DNA of 10,291 nucleotides, from positions 1 to 10,291 of the forward strand of contig JAJDTN010000142.1 of assembly GCA_022827165.1 (NCBI GenBank), written 5' to 3'. Position 1 is the stretch's first letter, and each line of letters opens with the position of its first letter. Of this stretch, positions 3,870 to 9,546 are shown in pieces. The notes under the pieces were generated by a model. It saw nothing but the letters and a program-made list of their open reading frames with translations. It did not search any database and was not told the origin of the DNA. The position numbers were made by a program, and so were the translations under genes. This DNA comes from Candidatus Latescibacterota bacterium. Lineage in GTDB: Bacteria; Latescibacterota; UBA2968; UBA8231.

Positions 3870-4400
3870 ATGAGCACATTTCCCCAGCCGCCAGCAGGAG
3901 CCGGTGAGACGATTCGGAACGTCACTGGCACAATGGTCTGGCTCTCTGAGCCGTTGAGGGCCGATTTGGACTTGGACAGGTATAGAGCCCTCCGAGAGGG
4001 ACTGGCCCCATTGGTCGAGGAGTTCCACAGACGATTTGCCGAGCTTGCCAAGGACTACCCGGAGGATGACGAGATTGATCCTGATGACATTGCGGTTCCT
4101 CTCTTGAAAAAGGCCGAGGAGTACTTTGACGCGCAACGTGTCGAACTACGACATCTACGGTCTGACTTGGTTGGCGAAGGCTACAAAGAACGGATTGGGG
4201 AACTGGATCAGCTGGATGATCTCTACAGAAGACTCACGATCATGCTTGAAGAAGCTCGATGGACAATCCTGATCCATGACGGCCAGGCTTCCGAGGTTGC
4301 CGGAACGATAAGGGGCGGAGATGGTCTCATGAAGTTCCTGCGAGACGGCAGTGATGCGGATCCATCCGCAAGGCTGCTCGCAGGTTACATCCCAAGGTGA
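3870..4400 (+). CDS. Acidic helical protein, possible antitoxin partner of the RelE-like gene
   Basis: 176 residues from ATG 3870, preceded by GGAGAAGAGG (3859-3868). I recognise no family. It is predicted to be mostly helical and acidic: a helix-rich stretch RYRALREGLAPLVEEFHRRFAELAK (38-61), a D/E cluster PEDDEIDPDD (64-73), then charged helices (78-130) containing ELDQLDDLYRRLTIMLEEAR, and a C-terminal GTIRGGDGLMKFLRDG (146-161). No ribbon-helix-helix or helix-turn-helix is evident, so if it is an antitoxin its DNA-binding mode would be unusual. Its stop overlaps the start of the RelE-like gene by GTGA (4397-4400), and it has its own promoter. Base composition is clearly lower in GC than its neighbours (27/60 G+C in 4201-4260 and 31/60 in 4081-4140, against 42/60 in 3001-3060), suggesting horizontal acquisition. 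The antitoxin role is inferred only from position. Confidence 0.65.
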   Translation: MSTFPQPPAGAGETIRNVTGTMVWLSEPLRADLDLDRYRALREGLAPLVEEFHRRFAELAKDYPEDDEIDPDDIAVPLLKKAEEYFDAQRVELRHLRSDLVGEGYKERIGELDQLDDLYRRLTIMLEEARWTILIHDGQASEVAGTIRGGDGLMKFLRDGSDADPSARLLAGYIPR

Positions 4401-4609
4401 AGAAAGAGCTGATTGATCTCTTCGATGAATTTGAGAGGGGAGAACTATCGCCAGGCCGGAACCTTGAGAAACTGGGTGGGCAGCGAAAGAACCAGCCCCC
4501 GCTTCATTCTGTAAGACTGGATGACAAGCACAGATTCATCTTTCGAGATCTCGGGCAAGGAGTTGCCAAAGCAATCGCTGTCGGTCCCCATGACGCATAC
4601 AGATTGTGA
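4397..4609 (+). CDS. RelE/ParE-superfamily-like small protein (putative toxin)
   Basis: 70 residues from GTG 4397, overlapping the preceding stop by 4 bp. Visible pattern: SPGRNLEKLGG (18-28), then LHSVRLDDKHRFIFRDL (36-52), then AIAVGPHDAYRL (59-70). The order (a helix ending in a KL.G loop, an SxR[VL] strand, an [HY]R[FI]I[FL] strand, and a terminal xVGxHDxxYR) is the beta-sheet core of RelE/ParE-type proteins. The S-P-G-x-N-x-E-K and H-D-x-x-Y-R signatures resemble the RelE-like domains found alone or attached to helicases. RelE proteins are usually ribosome-dependent mRNA endonucleases and ParE proteins gyrase poisons; which applies here, or whether it is active at all, cannot be told. 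It is short for the family (usually 85-100), with the N-terminal helical pair reduced. It shares the low GC of its upstream partner. Confidence 0.65.
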   Translation: MKKELIDLFDEFERGELSPGRNLEKLGGQRKNQPPLHSVRLDDKHRFIFRDLGQGVAKAIAVGPHDAYRL

Positions 4610-4765: not shown

Positions 4766-6700
4766 ATGGACACACCTCGCGTCTTCGGCTGCACCTACCG
4801 CGGGCTCATCGTCGGCACCCTCGGGTGCATCGTCGTCGGGGCGGGGTTCAACTACTCCACCTACGTCCTCCGCGTCGGAGCTTTCTCCACCTGGCACTAC
4901 ACCATCGGCGCCAACCTCATGCTGTTCCTGATGGCGCTGGTCGTGAACCCCCTGCTGGGACTCCTCAAACGCGACTGGGTGCTGACGCCGCCCGAGCTGG
5001 CCCAGGTCTACGTGATGTGGATCGTCGGCTCCGGCGTCGCCACCAACGGCCTGCCCGACTACCTGCTGCCCCACATCACCTCCATGGCCTACTACATCTC
5101 CCCGGAGAACGCCTGGGCCGAGGCGGTGATCCCCTACATTCCGAGCTGGGTGGTACCCTCCCATTACTTCCAGGACATCCGCGGTTTCTACGAAGGGTCC
5201 GGCGACGGCACGGTGCCGTGGGGGATGTGGCTGCCGGTCCTGTTGATCGGCTGGGGGCCGATGGCGATGTGTCTCTGGGTCGCCATGGTCTCGGTCGCCG
5301 TCATCCTGCGCAAGCAGTGGATCGACCACGAGCGGCTCGTCTACCCGATGATGCAGCTGCCCATCGCCATGATCCAGGACGACGCCGACGAAGGCGCGCG
5401 CCCCGGTCTGGTCAAGCCCCTGTTCCGCAACTGGATCTTCTGGCTCGGTTTCATCCTCCCCTTCATCATCGGCGTCAACAACGGTCTGACCCGCTACTTC
5501 CCGCTGGACCCGATCCACGTGGGCGGGCAGTACGTCTACCTGTTCCGCGAGGTCGCGCAGGTGCGCCTCGGCATCAGCTTCATGATGCTCGGGTTCGCCT
5601 ACTTCATCCGCCGCGACGTGACCTTGGGGATCTGCTTCTACTACTTCGTCTACATGGCCTACCAGGTCATCTCGACGCTGACGGGGGGCGGCGACACGGA
5701 CCCTCTTATGAGTCCGTGGACGCGCTCGCCGACGACCTTCTCCTTCGAGGGGTTGGGCGCCTTCATCGCCCTGGTGGTCGTCGGCCTGTGGAACGGGCGG
5801 AGGCACATCGTCGCCGTCGGGCGCCGCGCCCTGGGTCTGTCGTCGGAGGTGGACGCCAGCGAAGGGGACGAGATCATGTCCTACCGCACCGCCGTCCTCC
5901 TCTTCGCCGGCAGCTTCTCCTTCATCTGCTTCTGGCTCTGGCTCCTCGGACTCCCGGCCTGGATCGCGTTCCTCTACCTGGGGCTGGCCTTCCTCCTCTA
6001 CCTGGGGATCACCCGCGTCGTCTGCGAAGGGGGGATCCCCTGGTTCGCCTGTCCCATCATCGCCTCCGACGCCATCGTCGGCGGCCTCGGGACCCGCGCC
6101 CTGGGGCCGACGGGGATCGTCGCCCTCGGCTTCACCTATGCCTGGGCGGCGGACATGATCATCCTGGTGATGACCTGCGCGGCGCAGAGCCTCAAGGTGG
6201 TGGAGGAGAGCATCCGCCGACACCGCCGGATGCTCCTGGCCAGCATGCTGATCGCCATCGCGGTGTCGATCTGCGGCGGCATGGCCGTCTTCCTGGGCAC
6301 GGCCTACGAGCACGGGGGCCTGAACATCACCCACACGCTGAAGGAGCAGGGGTACTACCAGTGGCAGGACGCGGCCGCCCGGCTGCAGACGAGTACCGGG
6401 ACGAACTGGGGCTATTGGGGCCACACCGGCATCGGGGCGCTGGTCATGGGGCTGCTGATGTTCGCCCGGCAACGCTTCGTGTGGTGGCCCTTCCACCCCA
6501 TCGGCTTTCCAGTGAGCCTGGCGACCCACAAGATGTTCCTCAGCATCCTCATCGCCTGGGCGATCAAGACCGCCGTCCTGCGCCTTGGCGGACCGCGGCT
6601 CTACAACACGCTGAAGCCGCTGTTCCTGGGACTCATCATCGGCGAGTGGAGCCCGAAGATCGTCATCCTGGCCTGGGAGTGGGCGCTGCAGAGCCTGTAG
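4766..6700 (+). CDS. DUF6785/DUF6784-family polytopic membrane protein (OPT-like, putative transporter)
   Basis: 644 residues with about 13-15 hydrophobic membrane segments (roughly 13-30, 46-65, 78-90, 153-181, 223-240, 268-283, 287-303, 328-342, 374-392, 395-415, 446-470, 488-511, 551-567, 587-605, 615-635). Family marks: a conserved W-x2-H-E-R-L-V-Y-P-M-x-Q-L-P segment (185-199), and near the C-terminus WWPFHPIGFP (573-582) followed by W598-AIK, RLGGPRLY (606-613) and PLFLGLIIGEW (618-628). This architecture is found in uncharacterised proteins distantly like oligopeptide transporters, common in Planctomycetota, Armatimonadota and candidate phyla; the substrate is unknown. No Shine-Dalgarno precedes ATG 4766, so translation may depend on the leader or be leaderless-like, but the N-terminus fits. 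It ends in TAG and converges on the SoxR-type gene. I see no energy-coupling partner nearby. Confidence 0.85.
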   Translation: MDTPRVFGCTYRGLIVGTLGCIVVGAGFNYSTYVLRVGAFSTWHYTIGANLMLFLMALVVNPLLGLLKRDWVLTPPELAQVYVMWIVGSGVATNGLPDYLLPHITSMAYYISPENAWAEAVIPYIPSWVVPSHYFQDIRGFYEGSGDGTVPWGMWLPVLLIGWGPMAMCLWVAMVSVAVILRKQWIDHERLVYPMMQLPIAMIQDDADEGARPGLVKPLFRNWIFWLGFILPFIIGVNNGLTRYFPLDPIHVGGQYVYLFREVAQVRLGISFMMLGFAYFIRRDVTLGICFYYFVYMAYQVISTLTGGGDTDPLMSPWTRSPTTFSFEGLGAFIALVVVGLWNGRRHIVAVGRRALGLSSEVDASEGDEIMSYRTAVLLFAGSFSFICFWLWLLGLPAWIAFLYLGLAFLLYLGITRVVCEGGIPWFACPIIASDAIVGGLGTRALGPTGIVALGFTYAWAADMIILVMTCAAQSLKVVEESIRRHRRMLLASMLIAIAVSICGGMAVFLGTAYEHGGLNITHTLKEQGYYQWQDAAARLQTSTGTNWGYWGHTGIGALVMGLLMFARQRFVWWPFHPIGFPVSLATHKMFLSILIAWAIKTAVLRLGGPRLYNTLKPLFLGLIIGEWSPKIVILAWEWALQSL

Positions 6701-6767: not shown

Positions 6768-7238
6768 TCACCCGGCGGACGGGTGCCTCGGCGCGGGATT
6801 CCCCATCAGCAGGCTGCCGTCGACGCGGGATGCTATCTCGTCGCCCTGGTTGAAGAGCCTGCACGTCCGCAGGGACAGGCAGCCGCAGCCTATGCACCCG
6901 GTCAGGCTCTCCTTCAACCTCTCCAGCGTCTCGATCCGCTCCTCGAGCTGATCCCTCCAACCCCGCGACAGCCTCGCCCACTCCGCCTTGTTGGGTGTGC
7001 GTCCGCTGGGCAGCCCATCCAGGGCCGAGCGGATCTCGCGGAGGGACACGCCGATCTTCTGGGCGGCGCGGATGACGGCGACGCGGCGCAGCACCGCCCG
7101 CGGATAGCGCCGCTGGTTGCCGCCTGTCCGCTCCGAGGAGATCAGTCCCTCCTCCTCGTAGAAGCGCAGGGCCGAGGCGGCGACCCCGCTTCGGGCCGCC
7201 ACCTCACCGATGGTCAGGGACTCCGCAAGCTCGGCCAT
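6768..7238 (-). CDS. soxR: SoxR-type MerR-family redox-sensing transcriptional regulator
   Basis: 156 residues from the ATG ending at 7238, chosen because AGGAG (complement of 7246-7250) lies 7 bases upstream and because the first residues MAELAESLTIGEVAARSGVA begin a typical MerR helix-turn-helix; the frame could be extended upstream but only through the operator. Residues 8-75 are the MerR DNA-binding domain (ALRFYEEEGLI, 23-33; GGNQRRYPRAVLRRVAVIRAAQKIGVSL, 39-66). A dimerisation helix follows (87-112). The C-terminal loop CIGCGCLSLRTC gives C115-x2-C118-x-C120-x5-C126, the exact [2Fe-2S] pattern of SoxR, whose oxidation switches transcription on by untwisting the promoter. The NQGD after the cluster parallels NPGD in enterobacterial SoxR. 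No soxS is visible; the divergent target is the Rieske-fusion operon, with a SoxR-box palindrome between them, and autoregulation is likely. Confidence 0.93.
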   Translation of the reverse strand: MAELAESLTIGEVAARSGVAASALRFYEEEGLISSERTGGNQRRYPRAVLRRVAVIRAAQKIGVSLREIRSALDGLPSGRTPNKAEWARLSRGWRDQLEERIETLERLKESLTGCIGCGCLSLRTCRLFNQGDEIASRVDGSLLMGNPAPRHPSAG

Positions 7239-7249
7239 GAAGATTCTCC

Positions 7250-7280
7250 TTGACTTCAAGTATACTTGAAGTTGCAGATT
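7250..7280 (+). promoter_or_regulatory. SoxR-box-like palindrome inside a long-spacer promoter
   Basis: A perfect 20-bp palindrome ACTTCAAGTA/TACTTGAAGT spans 7253-7272. Its central 18 bp match the enterobacterial soxS operator as I remember it (CCTCAAGTTAACTTGAGG) at 14 positions. It starts within TTGACT (7250-7255, -35-like), and CAGATT (7275-7280) is a weak -10 after a 19-bp spacer. MerR-family activators characteristically bind palindromes in 19-20-bp spacers that are too long for unaided RNA polymerase. The right-hand gene starts at 7325 and soxR starts at 7238, only 14 bp from the palindrome. The palindrome is seen directly; SoxR binding is a strong inference. Confidence 0.85.
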
Positions 7281-7324
7281 CGGTCCACGGCTCATGGGGA
7301 GCCGCAGAGCGAGAGGAGAGAATC

Positions 7325-9064
7325 ATGGATGGATCATCGGCGAAAATGCTGGACGCGGGGACCCTGGAGGAGATCGAGCACAAGGGACGAGTCCTGGTCT
7401 CGGGCGGACCCGTACCGATCGTCGTCTTCCACTCCGACGGGAACCTGCACGCCGTCGACAACCGCTGTCCCCACATGGGTTTCCCGTTGCATCGGGGGAC
7501 CGTGGAGGACGGCATCCTGACCTGCCACTGGCATCACGCCCGGTTCGACCTGAAGAGCGGCTGCACCTTCGACCTCTTTGCCGACGACGCCACGGTCTAC
7601 CCGGTCGAGGTCCGGGACGGGCGCGTGTACGTCGACGTCTCCGCGTCCCCTCGCGACCCGGTCGAGGGCGGTCTGCGCCGGCTCGAGGAGGGCATGGACC
7701 AGAACATCAGGCTGGTGATGGCCAAGGCCGTGGTGGCGCTCCTGCGCGCCGGCGCGGACCCGGACGACGTGGTGCGGGCCAGCGGCCTCTACGGAGCGCG
7801 CCGGCGGCGCTCCGGGTGGTCCAACGGCATGACGATCCTCTCGGCCATGGCCAACGTCGGCGACCACCTCGAAGGCGACGAGCGCATCGCCCCCTTGTAC
7901 CAGGGGATCCTGCACGTGGCGTCGGACACCAGCGGCCAGCCGCCGCGGGTGCCGCTCCGGCCTCTCGAGAGCAGGGAGATCCCGCACGCCGCGCTCCGGC
8001 GGTGGTTCCGGTACCTCATCGAGGTGCGCAACGCCGACGGCGCCGAGCGCACCCTGCTGGCCGCCATCGAGGGCCCTTCGAGCCCGTCCGACCTGGCGGA
8101 GATGATGGTGGCGGCGGCGACCGACCACTTCTACCTCGAAGGCGGCCACGTCATCGACTTCATCAACAAGGCCTTCGAGTTGCTCGACCGCATCGGCTGG
8201 GAGCACGCGGCCGACGTCCTGCCCTCGCTCATCCGCCAGTTGAGCGCCGCCCAGCGCAGCGAGGAGCAGAACAGCTGGCGCTCCCCCGTCGACTTGGTGA
8301 CGCTGCTGAGGGATACTTTCGAGTCGCTGGAGCAACTGTTGGAGGAAGGCCGGGCGAAGGAGTGGCAAGGCGGTTGCGAGTTCACCGAGACGCTCCTGCA
8401 GGACGATCCCCACGCGATCGTGGAGGAGCTGAACGAGGCGCTGAAGGAGGGCGCGCGCCCGGTGCAACTGGCACGGGCGGTGACGATGGCCGCGGCCATG
8501 CGCATCACCCGGTTCCACATGAACAACGAGTTCTCCGACTGGATCGCGGTGCTCCACACCTTCTCGTACGCCAACGCCCTCCACCAGATGCTGAAGAGGG
8601 CCGAGTCGCCAGAGATGCTGCGCGGCGTCTACCACGGGGCGATGCGCGTCTACCTCGACCGCTTCCTCAACGTCCCGCCCGCCCGCCTGCCCGACGAGGG
8701 AGCGGCCGCGGCGAACCCCGGCGAGGCGCTGGAGGAGTACCTGCAGCTGCTCGACCAGCAACAGCAGGTCGACGAAGCCGGGCGGCTCGTCTCCGGCTAC
8801 CTGGTGTCAGGGGGCGAACCCGGACCCCTGTTCCGAGCGCTCAGCGAGTCCCTGGTGCGGGAGGACGCCGAGTTCCACAGCTTCCAGATGCTCGAGGCCG
8901 CCATCCGCCAGCACGGCGAGCGCACCGACGCCGGCGAGCAGCGGATCCCGATGGTGGCTGCCGCCCGCTACCTGGCGGCCAAGGCGCCGACCCAGCGCGA
9001 GCTGCTCCAGACGCTGCAGATCGCCCGGCGCCTGCACCGCGGAGAGGCGGTATACGAGACATGA
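7325..9064 (+). CDS. Rieske [2Fe-2S] domain fused to a large helical repeat domain, SoxR-box controlled
   Basis: 579 residues from ATG 7325, with AGGAG (7314-7318) 6 bases upstream; upstream extension would enter the promoter. Residues about 8-106 are a Rieske ferredoxin-like domain with C48-P-H50 and C67-H-W-H70 (CxH...CxxH), which bind a 2Fe-2S cluster and serve in electron transfer to an oxygenase or similar partner. There is no signal peptide, so it is probably cytoplasmic. The remaining 470 residues are helical with no named domain I can assign; from memory similar full-length proteins are annotated only as Rieske proteins. I see four diverged units with a shared G-x-x-P turn (Pro 146, 254, 379, 499) followed by an Ala-rich helix, and a His about 19-21 residues later in three of them (H275, H398, H518). 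Other notable residues: DH 267-268, H411, H420. The stop overlaps the start of the next gene by ATGA. Enzymatic role unknown; a redox-stress or redox-metabolite function is inferred from SoxR control. Confidence 0.88.
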   Translation: MDGSSAKMLDAGTLEEIEHKGRVLVSGGPVPIVVFHSDGNLHAVDNRCPHMGFPLHRGTVEDGILTCHWHHARFDLKSGCTFDLFADDATVYPVEVRDGRVYVDVSASPRDPVEGGLRRLEEGMDQNIRLVMAKAVVALLRAGADPDDVVRASGLYGARRRRSGWSNGMTILSAMANVGDHLEGDERIAPLYQGILHVASDTSGQPPRVPLRPLESREIPHAALRRWFRYLIEVRNADGAERTLLAAIEGPSSPSDLAEMMVAAATDHFYLEGGHVIDFINKAFELLDRIGWEHAADVLPSLIRQLSAAQRSEEQNSWRSPVDLVTLLRDTFESLEQLLEEGRAKEWQGGCEFTETLLQDDPHAIVEELNEALKEGARPVQLARAVTMAAAMRITRFHMNNEFSDWIAVLHTFSYANALHQMLKRAESPEMLRGVYHGAMRVYLDRFLNVPPARLPDEGAAAANPGEALEEYLQLLDQQQQVDEAGRLVSGYLVSGGEPGPLFRALSESLVREDAEFHSFQMLEAAIRQHGERTDAGEQRIPMVAAARYLAAKAPTQRELLQTLQIARRLHRGEAVYET

Positions 9065-9258
9065 ACCGGGGGGAGGGCCCCATCGAGCGGGAGCGCATCG
9101 AACGCGCCGCCCGCCTGTACTCGACCAACGAGGCCGCCGGCCGGGCCCTCGGCATCGCCCCGCGCAGCTTCAGCCGGCTGTGCCGCCGCTACGGCGTCGA
9201 GTCGCCCTACGCCCGCCGCCTGCGGGAGCGCCGGGAGGCGCGGCAGGGCTGCTCCTGA
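9061..9258 (+). CDS. Small helix-turn-helix protein, translationally coupled to the Rieske fusion
   Basis: 65 residues from ATG 9061, overlapping the upstream TGA by ATGA (9061-9064). STNEAAGRALGIAPRSFSRLCRRYGV (21-46) has the form of a helix-turn-helix like the Fis-type DNA-binding segment (an A-A-x-x-L-G-I turn followed by a recognition helix). A basic tail ARRLRERREARQ (51-62) follows and there is no other domain. It could be a transcription factor or nucleoid-type protein acting with the SoxR circuit, or a subunit whose HTH-like fold is used for protein contact. It is easy to miss by gene callers because the same strand carries a long shadow frame through the Rieske gene. The start overlap and protein-like character make it a credible gene. 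Confidence 0.75.
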   Translation: MNRGEGPIERERIERAARLYSTNEAAGRALGIAPRSFSRLCRRYGVESPYARRLRERREARQGCS

Positions 9259-9261
9259 GCT

Positions 9262-9353
9262 GGGAGGAGGCGGGCAGGGGCCGACACTTCAGATGCCGAG
9301 GTCTCTGGACAACTCCTCGGCACTGTTGAAGCGCCGGCCCCTGCCTTCCTCCA
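9262..9353. repeat. Imperfect inverted repeat spanning the 3' end of the DinJ-like gene
   Basis: The left arm (about 9262-9301) and right arm (about 9315-9353) are near-complementary around a 13-nt spacer (9302-9314). Uninterrupted blocks are GGAGG 9266-9270 with CCTCC 9348-9352, an 11-bp block 9273-9283 with 9335-9345 (GGCAGGGGCCG / CGGCCCCTGCC), CTTCA 9287-9291 with TGAAG 9327-9331, and TGCCGAGG 9294-9301 with CCTCGGCA 9315-9322. That is about 30 Watson-Crick pairs. The right arm is coding (last 19 codons of the antitoxin gene) and the left arm is mostly its downstream flank. It could act as a shared terminator or RNA-stability structure for the convergent genes, or be a relic of an inverted duplication. 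No T tract follows either arm. Confidence 0.65.
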
Positions 9354-9546
9354 GTTCCTTCATGGCCTCGACAGTCTTCGAGTTGGGAACCTGAACGGCG
9401 AAGGGCAGCCGCTTCTCGTCCGCCACGCAGAGCAGCAGCAAGCGGATCGCGTCTGAGACCGACAGGCCCATGGCTTGCAACGCTTCGGTGGCGCGGGCCT
9501 TGGTATCGCTGTCAATCCGGGCCTGCACAATGGTATCGGTGCTCAT
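9289..9546 (-). CDS. RelB/DinJ-family antitoxin-like protein, without a toxin gene
   Basis: 85 residues from the ATG ending at 9546; a GAGGAGGG ribosome-binding site (complement of 9556-9563) lies 9 bases upstream. The N-terminus TIVQARIDSDTKARATEALQAMGLSVSDAIRLLL is the ribbon-helix-helix of the RelB/DinJ family: a short beta strand VQARID, a helix with K-x-x-A-x-x-x-L, and the typical GLSVSDAIRLLL. After RLPF come VPNSKTVEAMKELEEGRG and a C-terminal FNSAEELSRDLGI that in relatives wraps the toxin. DinJ-type antitoxins normally precede a YafQ/RelE-type toxin on the same strand. Here the downstream side (below 9289) holds only the convergent HTH gene, so the gene is an orphan or has lost its toxin. 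G+C (about 62-63% in two lines counted) is somewhat lower than the flanking phosphatase (43/60 in 9601-9660). Confidence 0.85.
   Translation of the reverse strand: MSTDTIVQARIDSDTKARATEALQAMGLSVSDAIRLLLLCVADEKRLPFAVQVPNSKTVEAMKELEEGRGRRFNSAEELSRDLGI

Follow-up and report, generated by a model that had tools for sequence, protein, structure and literature searches.

What does SoxR control in a Candidatus Latescibacterota bacterium, and what kind of protein is encoded by the gene beside it? We examined a stretch of 10,291 nucleotides (GenBank assembly GCA_022827165.1, contig JAJDTN010000142.1; hereafter the window) in which soxR is divergent from a gene for a 579-amino-acid (aa) protein with an N-terminal Rieske [2Fe-2S] domain. 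Comparisons of sequences and genomes give good support to SoxR control of this Rieske-fusion gene and point to an enzyme domain in the remainder of its product. The two genes may form a self-contained module: a redox-cycling compound would activate SoxR, and the oxygenase that SoxR then induces, a non-haem-iron enzyme fed by its Rieske domain, would attack that same compound. We advance this proposal tentatively, rating it a little under an even chance.

A predicted SoxR box coincides with the likely promoter of the Rieske-fusion gene

The soxR product scores 199.8 bits against TIGR01950, 83 bits above the family cut-off of 116.9, and aligns over 140 residues with the structure of SoxR from E. 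coli (2zhg; E 2.8e-42). Its cluster loop, CIGCGCLSLRTC (residues 115–126), has the CxxCxCxxxxxC pattern, with cysteines at positions 115, 118, 120 and 126. A longer soxR reading frame (start at 7295) would cross the palindrome described below, and the ATG at 7238 was taken as the start. A preliminary description of this DNA had proposed a SoxR with an intact four-cysteine loop, divergent from a Rieske-fusion gene and separated from it by a SoxR-box-like palindrome. Each of these elements is borne out here (coordinates in Table 1).

The predicted SoxR box is a perfect 20-nt palindrome. When up to three mismatches are allowed, the box pattern has one match in the window and none in 200 window shuffles. 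Sixteen of the 20 columns are invariant among six aligned loci, including the actinobacterial locus L088. The box coincides with the likely Rieske-fusion promoter, of which the TTGAC of the −35 element is invariant in all six loci (the sixth base is variable) and the −10 hexamer reads TAGATT in L023. The spacer between the two elements is 19 nt, a MerR-type spacing, and is occupied by the box. Promoters of MerR-family resistance genes are described as having a 19- or 20-bp spacer that contains a palindrome (excerpt of PMC1526738). A promoter-like site for soxR was found on the opposite strand (one found, 0.0 expected).

We scanned 13 genomes for boxes. The strict scan was positive in seven, with one site each, all at the module; the other six had no box. 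A relaxed scan (up to 3 mismatches in 18 positions) still gave a single site in each of the seven module genomes. It also gave one imperfect site each in two of three relatives without SoxR and one site each in two of three actinobacterial genomes, of which only that of G061 lies at the module. A backward control pattern matched three of the 13 genomes as well (G022, G023 and G015) in the three-mismatch scan, which weighs against reading much into such matches: given this control and the off-module sites, three-mismatch sites as such carry little meaning. Judged by these scans, the Rieske gene is the only recognisable predicted target of SoxR in the scanned genomes.

A box-like site (CTCAACCAGACTTGAG; 12 of 14 positions, with none of 100 shuffles as good) was also seen upstream of L046, a Rieske homologue without an adjacent soxR.

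soxR and the close Rieske orthologue are gained and lost together

Some match to the Rieske fusion is present in 46 of 60 related genomes, and a full-length orthologue with 83–92% identity in only seven. At all seven close-orthologue loci, soxR is adjacent and a box intervenes. A SoxR above the TIGR01950 cut-off occurs in seven of the 60 genomes, and these are the same seven; MerR-type matches in the remaining genomes fall far under the SoxR cut-off. Of the 11 genomes of genus g7, six have SoxR together with the close orthologue; the other five have neither but retain a Rieske paralogue of ~38–39% identity. This pattern of presence and absence indicates that the pair comes and goes jointly: soxR and the close Rieske orthologue are gained and lost together. 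The seven pair-bearing genomes are metagenome-assembled or similar (75–96% complete, 2–10% contamination) and are related to one another, and do not represent seven independent events.

The wider family behaves differently. Among 80 wider-family Rieske loci searched by tblastn, soxR was found at five: L021–L024, which belong to four of the seven pair-bearing genomes, and L088, from an actinobacterial genome. It was not found at the other 75, of which three (L030, L036 and L064) include just 63–205 bases upstream. In this 80-locus sample the link to soxR is clade-specific. The preliminary description had directed attention to the neighbours of homologues of the 579-aa protein; the association with soxR and the box holds at all seven close orthologues and recurs as an actinobacterial pair, but it does not extend to the wider loci in general (5 of 80).

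To follow the actinobacterial pair, we searched 199 genomes of the class to which L088 belongs, with at most six candidates scored per genome. This gave three long homologues (G061, G128 and G166), a piece cut by a contig end in G166 and a fragmented copy in G254; the other listed matches were short or distant. soxR is divergent beside the Rieske gene at all three near-complete copies, and in G254 it lies on a contig separate from the fragmented copy. The best box-like site of G061 matches 12 of 14 scored positions, with none of 100 shuffles as good.

The two groups linked to soxR stand far apart in the Rieske tree. Two proteins among the soxR-linked rows (P0014 and P0017) were labelled 'no group' for want of context, so the three label changes counted on this tree are an overcount. 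The soxR–Rieske pairing either formed twice or moved between lineages. A tree of the SoxR proteins neither joins the two groups linked to a Rieske gene as sisters nor sets them apart.

Some of these observations count against the proposed module. Besides the 75 loci at which tblastn found no soxR, the boxes of two actinobacterial loci are weak: the site in G166 matches 11 of 14 positions (1–2 of 100 shuffles as good) and that in G128 matches 10 of 14 (9 of 100). The 75 loci would also fit an explanation in which soxR stands beside the Rieske gene by chance and its product controls its own gene and others but not the Rieske fusion. Several observations speak against this explanation, which we regard as very improbable. 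First, the box lies within the Rieske promoter at 19-bp spacing. Second, it is the sole box found in each module genome. Finally, the two genes are present or absent jointly, and their pairing recurs in a distant clade. Control of the Rieske fusion by SoxR, predicted from these comparisons, is well supported, and the earlier idea of a SoxR-controlled redox unit with one target stands on the pair and box at seven of seven loci, the distant clade and the single box per genome.

Other homologues have other regulators nearby. At seven loci (L029, L031–L035 and L060), a minus-strand ORF of one cluster takes the place of soxR upstream of the Rieske-helical homologue; the one at L029 encodes a winged-helix type regulator (HTH_24, 34.7 bits). 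Regulators other than SoxR beside homologues are of AsnC, TetR and winged-helix type, which suggests that the gene is often rewired.

The C-terminal domain is homologous to a Rieske-less family with four conserved histidines

The N-terminal part of the 579-aa protein matches the Pfam Rieske family with 52.9 bits (cut-off 20.3) over residues 15–80, upholding the earlier description of a Rieske domain fused to a large region. None of the four cluster ligands varies among the 83 aligned homologues. A Pfam scan of the fusion found no family other than Rieske above its cut-off, and no Pfam or NCBIfam match to the catalytic domain of classical Rieske oxygenase alpha subunits was obtained. A PDB search with a whole-protein profile gave matches limited to the Rieske part (profile positions 3–110). 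Conservation is not confined to the cluster ligands: H275, D278, N281, E314, N401, D405, W406, E513 and H518 are likewise invariant in all 83 homologues. Sixteen of the 83 members match MgsA_C at E up to 5 (best 0.00017).

A relative without a Rieske domain, L231, was first seen as a 24% match in G026. A set of 101 of its relatives was collected (P0174–P0274), and the 86 longer than 420 aa were aligned with L231 (87 rows). The C-terminal domain and this Rieske-less family are homologous over 409 columns in a profile comparison (probability 99.6%, E 1.5e-24; 99.5% and 8e-23 with other alignments). The Rieske-less proteins have histidines at H67, H174, H300 and H400 in 87 of 87 rows, the last in a His-x-x-Lys motif (K403) in 84 of 87. 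Three of these four columns are shared with the Rieske-fused proteins: among the 86 rows closest to the window protein, histidine is found at H275 in 86, at H411 in 83 and at H518 in 86. The two families thus have three histidines in common and differ in that the Rieske-less proteins retain all four and the His-x-x-Lys motif. The preliminary description had called this region an unassigned repeat region; the lack of a Pfam family other than Rieske is confirmed, but the homology to the four-histidine family makes an enzyme domain the better reading.

Members of the Rieske-less family are 420–540 aa at full length and come without a precomputed Pfam domain. Two of them (P0270 and P0274) start, as judged by eye, with a twin-arginine-like leader.

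Gaps in the shared histidine set weigh against the oxygenase proposal. The first histidine column holds N167 in the window protein and histidine in none of the 86 nearest rows, and the motif lysine is replaced by glutamine (Q521) in 86 of 86. Paralogues of ~40% identity keep H275 and H518 in 12 of 12 sequences and have asparagine at 411 in 12 of 12. Six tandem paralogues of ~28% identity keep H275 in none, H411 in two and H518 in two. The tandem pairs, at L228, L229 and L230, consist of diverged Rieske-helical paralogues (26–30% identical) and have lost most of the conserved histidine set.

Such losses bear on whether the protein is an enzyme. It could act as an electron carrier or scaffold, with the Rieske domain serving as a ferredoxin and the C-terminal domain docking a partner, so that SoxR would control electron supply and not an enzyme. 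The loss of most of the histidine set in the ~28% tandem paralogues is consistent with this idea, as are the absence of a catalytic family over cut-off in Pfam and NCBIfam and the NCBIfam matches of the N-terminus, which are mostly to ferredoxin subunits and all below cut-off. Polar C-terminal residues that are invariant in 83 of 83 homologues, and histidines common to the stand-alone family, fit an active site, and we consider a carrier role unlikely.

A second possibility is that the C-terminal domain is of the AhpD/carboxymuconolactone decarboxylase (CMD) type, a Rieske-fed peroxidase or decarboxylase with an antioxidant and not an oxygenase function. In its favour, a single CMD helix hairpin finds matches in two stretches of the domain (P 0.0017 and 0.0044), a CMD hit at E up to 5 is seen for four of the 83 members (the best at 0.084), and CMD–Rieske fusion proteins occur in the same genomes. 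The AhpD/CMD active site is a CxxC motif; the window protein has cysteines at 48, 67, 80 and 351 only, and none of them form such a motif. The CMD matches span 31–66 columns, with a profile score of 32.1 against 41.1–44.6 for the questin oxidases discussed below, and the domain is homologous to the four-histidine family over 409 columns. On balance we consider a CMD-type domain quite improbable, and an oxygenase-type domain remains our preferred reading.

The CMD–Rieske proteins seen in these genomes are L193, L198 and L208 (in G004, G008 and G003, respectively), which are 216–239 aa long and apparently consist of a CMD/AhpD-like domain followed by a Rieske domain, a separate type of Rieske fusion within this lineage. 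Pfam was run on L208 alone, which scores 33.7 bits for CMD and 66.4 bits for Rieske.

Remote similarity to questin oxidases suggests an oxygenase

We compared a merged profile of Rieske-fused and Rieske-less proteins with the questin oxidases of PF14027. In 20 PF14027 rows, four histidines are invariant (20 of 20) and follow the same order as in the Rieske-less family, and the last is part of a His-x-x-Lys motif in 17 of 20. The iron site of BTG13, a member of this family, is reportedly formed by four histidines and a carboxylated lysine ligand. The merged profile scores 41.1 against a first PF14027 set. As controls, 100 column-shuffled decoys reach 19.7 at most and the reversed profile reaches 19.0; 78 clusters of ORFs taken from these loci, possibly including some shadow frames, reach at most 19.2. 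Against all 20 PF14027 members, the score is 43.9–44.6 and the probability 61–64%.

An extended alignment of a stand-alone representative with PF14027 pairs H67 with H46, H174 with H142, H300 with H259 and H400 with H327. For the window protein, the corresponding pairs are N167–H46, H275–H142, H411–H259, H518–H327 and Q521–K330. H142 of PF14027 (histidine in 12 of 20) neighbours the invariant H135. Other hhalign runs paired the second histidine with H135 and missed or shifted another. In searches of the PDB, a PF14027 profile (14 rows) recovered PaD (2.5e-13), AflY (3.7e-6) and BTG13 (4.3e-4 to 0.011), and the profile of the Rieske-less family recovered nothing credible.

Several results argue against too confident an assignment. 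To reach hhalign probabilities of 47–64%, the merged profile had to be combined with larger PF14027 sets; with other profiles the values were 0.1–25%. Single-sequence comparisons with two questin oxidases gave no signal (0.3–1.2%), and neither did global mode against PF14027 (0.1%). The scoring core comprises just 54–56 columns around H411, and alignments of 322–335 columns arise only at an accuracy cut of 0. All four invariant PF14027 histidines were never paired within one run, and in several hits the first histidine is paired with the third, the pattern expected of an internal repeat. CMD, a separate family, also scores against the merged profile, as given above. Of the four Pfam families that the window protein matches at E up to 5, none is PF14027 (cut-off 27 bits). 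A PF14027 scan of 11 relatives found no match, but there was none in any control genome either, so the scan does not establish absence. The four-histidine set of PF14027 is present in the window protein as three of four, and its His-x-x-Lys motif as His-x-x-Gln. Weighing both sides, we find it likely, from these profile comparisons, that the C-terminal domain belongs to a wider questin-oxidase superfamily by remote homology; that it is a questin-oxidase-like oxygenase is moderately supported.

A proposed SoxR-induced oxygenase module

In the mechanism we propose, SoxR would probably reside on the 20-bp box within the over-long 19-bp spacer, and its oxidation by a redox-cycling small molecule would switch on the divergent gene. 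The architecture is seen directly in the DNA, and the response is modelled on known SoxR proteins. The Rieske domain would pass electrons from a reductase to non-haem iron in the C-terminal domain. This iron may be held by H275, H411 and H518, perhaps together with an acidic residue (D278, E314 or D405). The enzyme might then oxidise, and perhaps ring-open, a quinone, a hydroquinone or a related aromatic compound, either the inducer of SoxR itself or its reduced form, so that the signal is removed. Such a module may protect the cell from toxic compounds of quinone type. No reductase or substrate gene is linked to the module, which counts against this scheme. The SoxR targets of Streptomyces coelicolor include, besides an ABC transporter, redox enzymes such as a monooxygenase and a putative quinone oxidoreductase (excerpt of PMC4146615), and an oxygenase target would fit this precedent.

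A broader proposal is possible, though somewhat more doubtful than the module itself. These proteins could represent a second class of Rieske oxygenase, with probably thousands of bacterial and haloarchaeal members, in which a questin-oxidase-like three-histidine iron domain replaces the classical catalytic domain; the pair described here would be a dedicated one-target SoxR switch for quinone removal in at least two phyla. A search for the Rieske-fusion family scored 8,000 candidates, and 7,998 of them had a match with E up to 0.001; the best 120 were listed.

If correct, this reading would provide a testable function for a large family that databases name solely by its ferredoxin-like front end. 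It would also reveal a new way of coupling Rieske domains to the chemistry of oxygen, and a redox circuit of one regulator and one enzyme that is found again in phyla far apart. SoxR control hints at the class of substrate, a clue that the other family members seen here do not offer.

The 65-aa HTH-like ORF is not a conserved part of the module

The preliminary description had placed a third gene in the module, for a 65-residue helix-turn-helix (HTH) protein that overlaps the Rieske-fusion gene by ATGA. The overlap is confirmed (ORF ATG at 9061, Rieske-fusion TGA at 9062–9064). The ORF has 53 database relatives, but its identity as an HTH protein is weak, as its best Pfam family, HTH_28, scores 17.8 bits against a cut-off of 25. 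Together, the overlap and the weak HTH match would be in keeping with an operon whose two products, the Rieske fusion and the HTH protein, act jointly downstream of SoxR. By tblastn, no copy of the 65-aa protein was found at the 100 loci examined. In the alignment with the nearest relative, L024, similarity ends at 9058 and resumes at 9289, so the stretch with the ORF is absent there. The family is instead dispersed: of 25 related genomes, 12 have matches elsewhere, as many as nine in one genome, and a few of these matches contain an internal stop. We reject the HTH protein as a conserved partner of the Rieske fusion, and joint action of the two appears exceedingly improbable.

The family of small HTH-like ORFs (window 9061–9258 and L108–L117) behaves in the manner of an element that is dispersed or mobile. 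A longer, 218-aa frame of L115 encloses one copy; the AP2/HNH-like look of this frame found no backing in Pfam, where no family matched at E up to 0.01.

Table 1. Coordinates of features in the window
Feature	Position	Strand	Remarks
soxR	6768–7238	−	156 aa; ATG at 7238; four-Cys [2Fe-2S] loop C115/C118/C120/C126
Likely −35 element, Rieske-fusion promoter	7250–7255	+	TTGACT; read by eye from the sequence
Predicted SoxR box	7253–7272		ACTTCAAGTATACTTGAAGT; perfect 20-nt palindrome, 10-nt arms, 100% complementary, 0 nt between
Promoter-like site for soxR	7259–7287	−	TGGACC-17-TATACT; overlaps the box; consensus match only
Likely weak −10 element, Rieske-fusion promoter	7275–7280	+	CAGATT; read by eye from the sequence
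Rieske-fusion gene	7325–9064	+	579 aa
Rieske [2Fe-2S] domain	7325–7645	+	Residues 1–107; ligands C48, H50, C67, H70
C-terminal domain	7646–9064	+	Residues 108–579; homology to Rieske-less family
Putative metal-binding H275	8147–8149	+	His column shared with Rieske-less family
Putative metal-binding H411	8555–8557	+	His column shared with Rieske-less family
Putative metal-binding H518	8876–8878	+	His column shared with Rieske-less family
65-aa HTH-like ORF	9061–9258	+	Not a conserved module part

Other genes surround the module. A DUF6785/DUF6784 protein (354 and 86 bits) is encoded on the plus strand at 4766–6700. In L024 a 97% identical copy stands in front of soxR; in L022 and L023, relatives of 35% identity flank the module at its other end. 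The segment 3738–4754, with ORFs of 176 aa (3870–4400) and 70 aa (4397–4609), is absent from the otherwise collinear L024. A RelB/DinJ-type antitoxin gene (TIGR02384, 74.2 bits) lies on the minus strand at 9289–9546. Alpha/beta hydrolases were considered as a common partner of the Rieske gene and rejected: they stand beside it at four of eight plasmid loci (one unannotated) and do not form one family, with only the Metabacillus and Priestia proteins matching each other (90%).

Comparison with known systems

In the literature searched, which covered few subscription journals, no text joined Rieske with questin oxidase, and none joined SoxR, quinone and Latescibacter. Judging by titles and the openings of abstracts, none of the papers found there on SoxR, Rieske and regulon deals with this protein. 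As far as these searches show, the SoxR half of the module is a further case of known regulation and the enzyme half is an undescribed fusion.

Classical Rieske non-haem iron oxygenases differ from the window protein in their catalytic domain, which finds no match in it; similarity is restricted to the Rieske part. The two have in common a C-x-H and C-x2-H Rieske domain joined in one chain to an iron domain, putative in the window protein. Relative to PF14027 proteins (BTG13, 7y3w-y; AflY, 8yxs; the hydroquinone dioxygenase PaD, 8z4q), the window protein adds a Rieske domain, has lost the first histidine, carries His-x-x-Gln for His-x-x-Lys and falls under Pfam detection. It resembles them in the conserved order of the histidine motif and in a weak profile similarity above decoys. 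The SoxR regulons of S. coelicolor and Pseudomonas aeruginosa differ from the present system, which has one box per genome and a Rieske fusion that is not among the targets named in the available excerpt (PMC4146615). They share with it the same type of cluster loop, a palindromic box in the promoter of the target and a small number of targets, redox enzymes among them.

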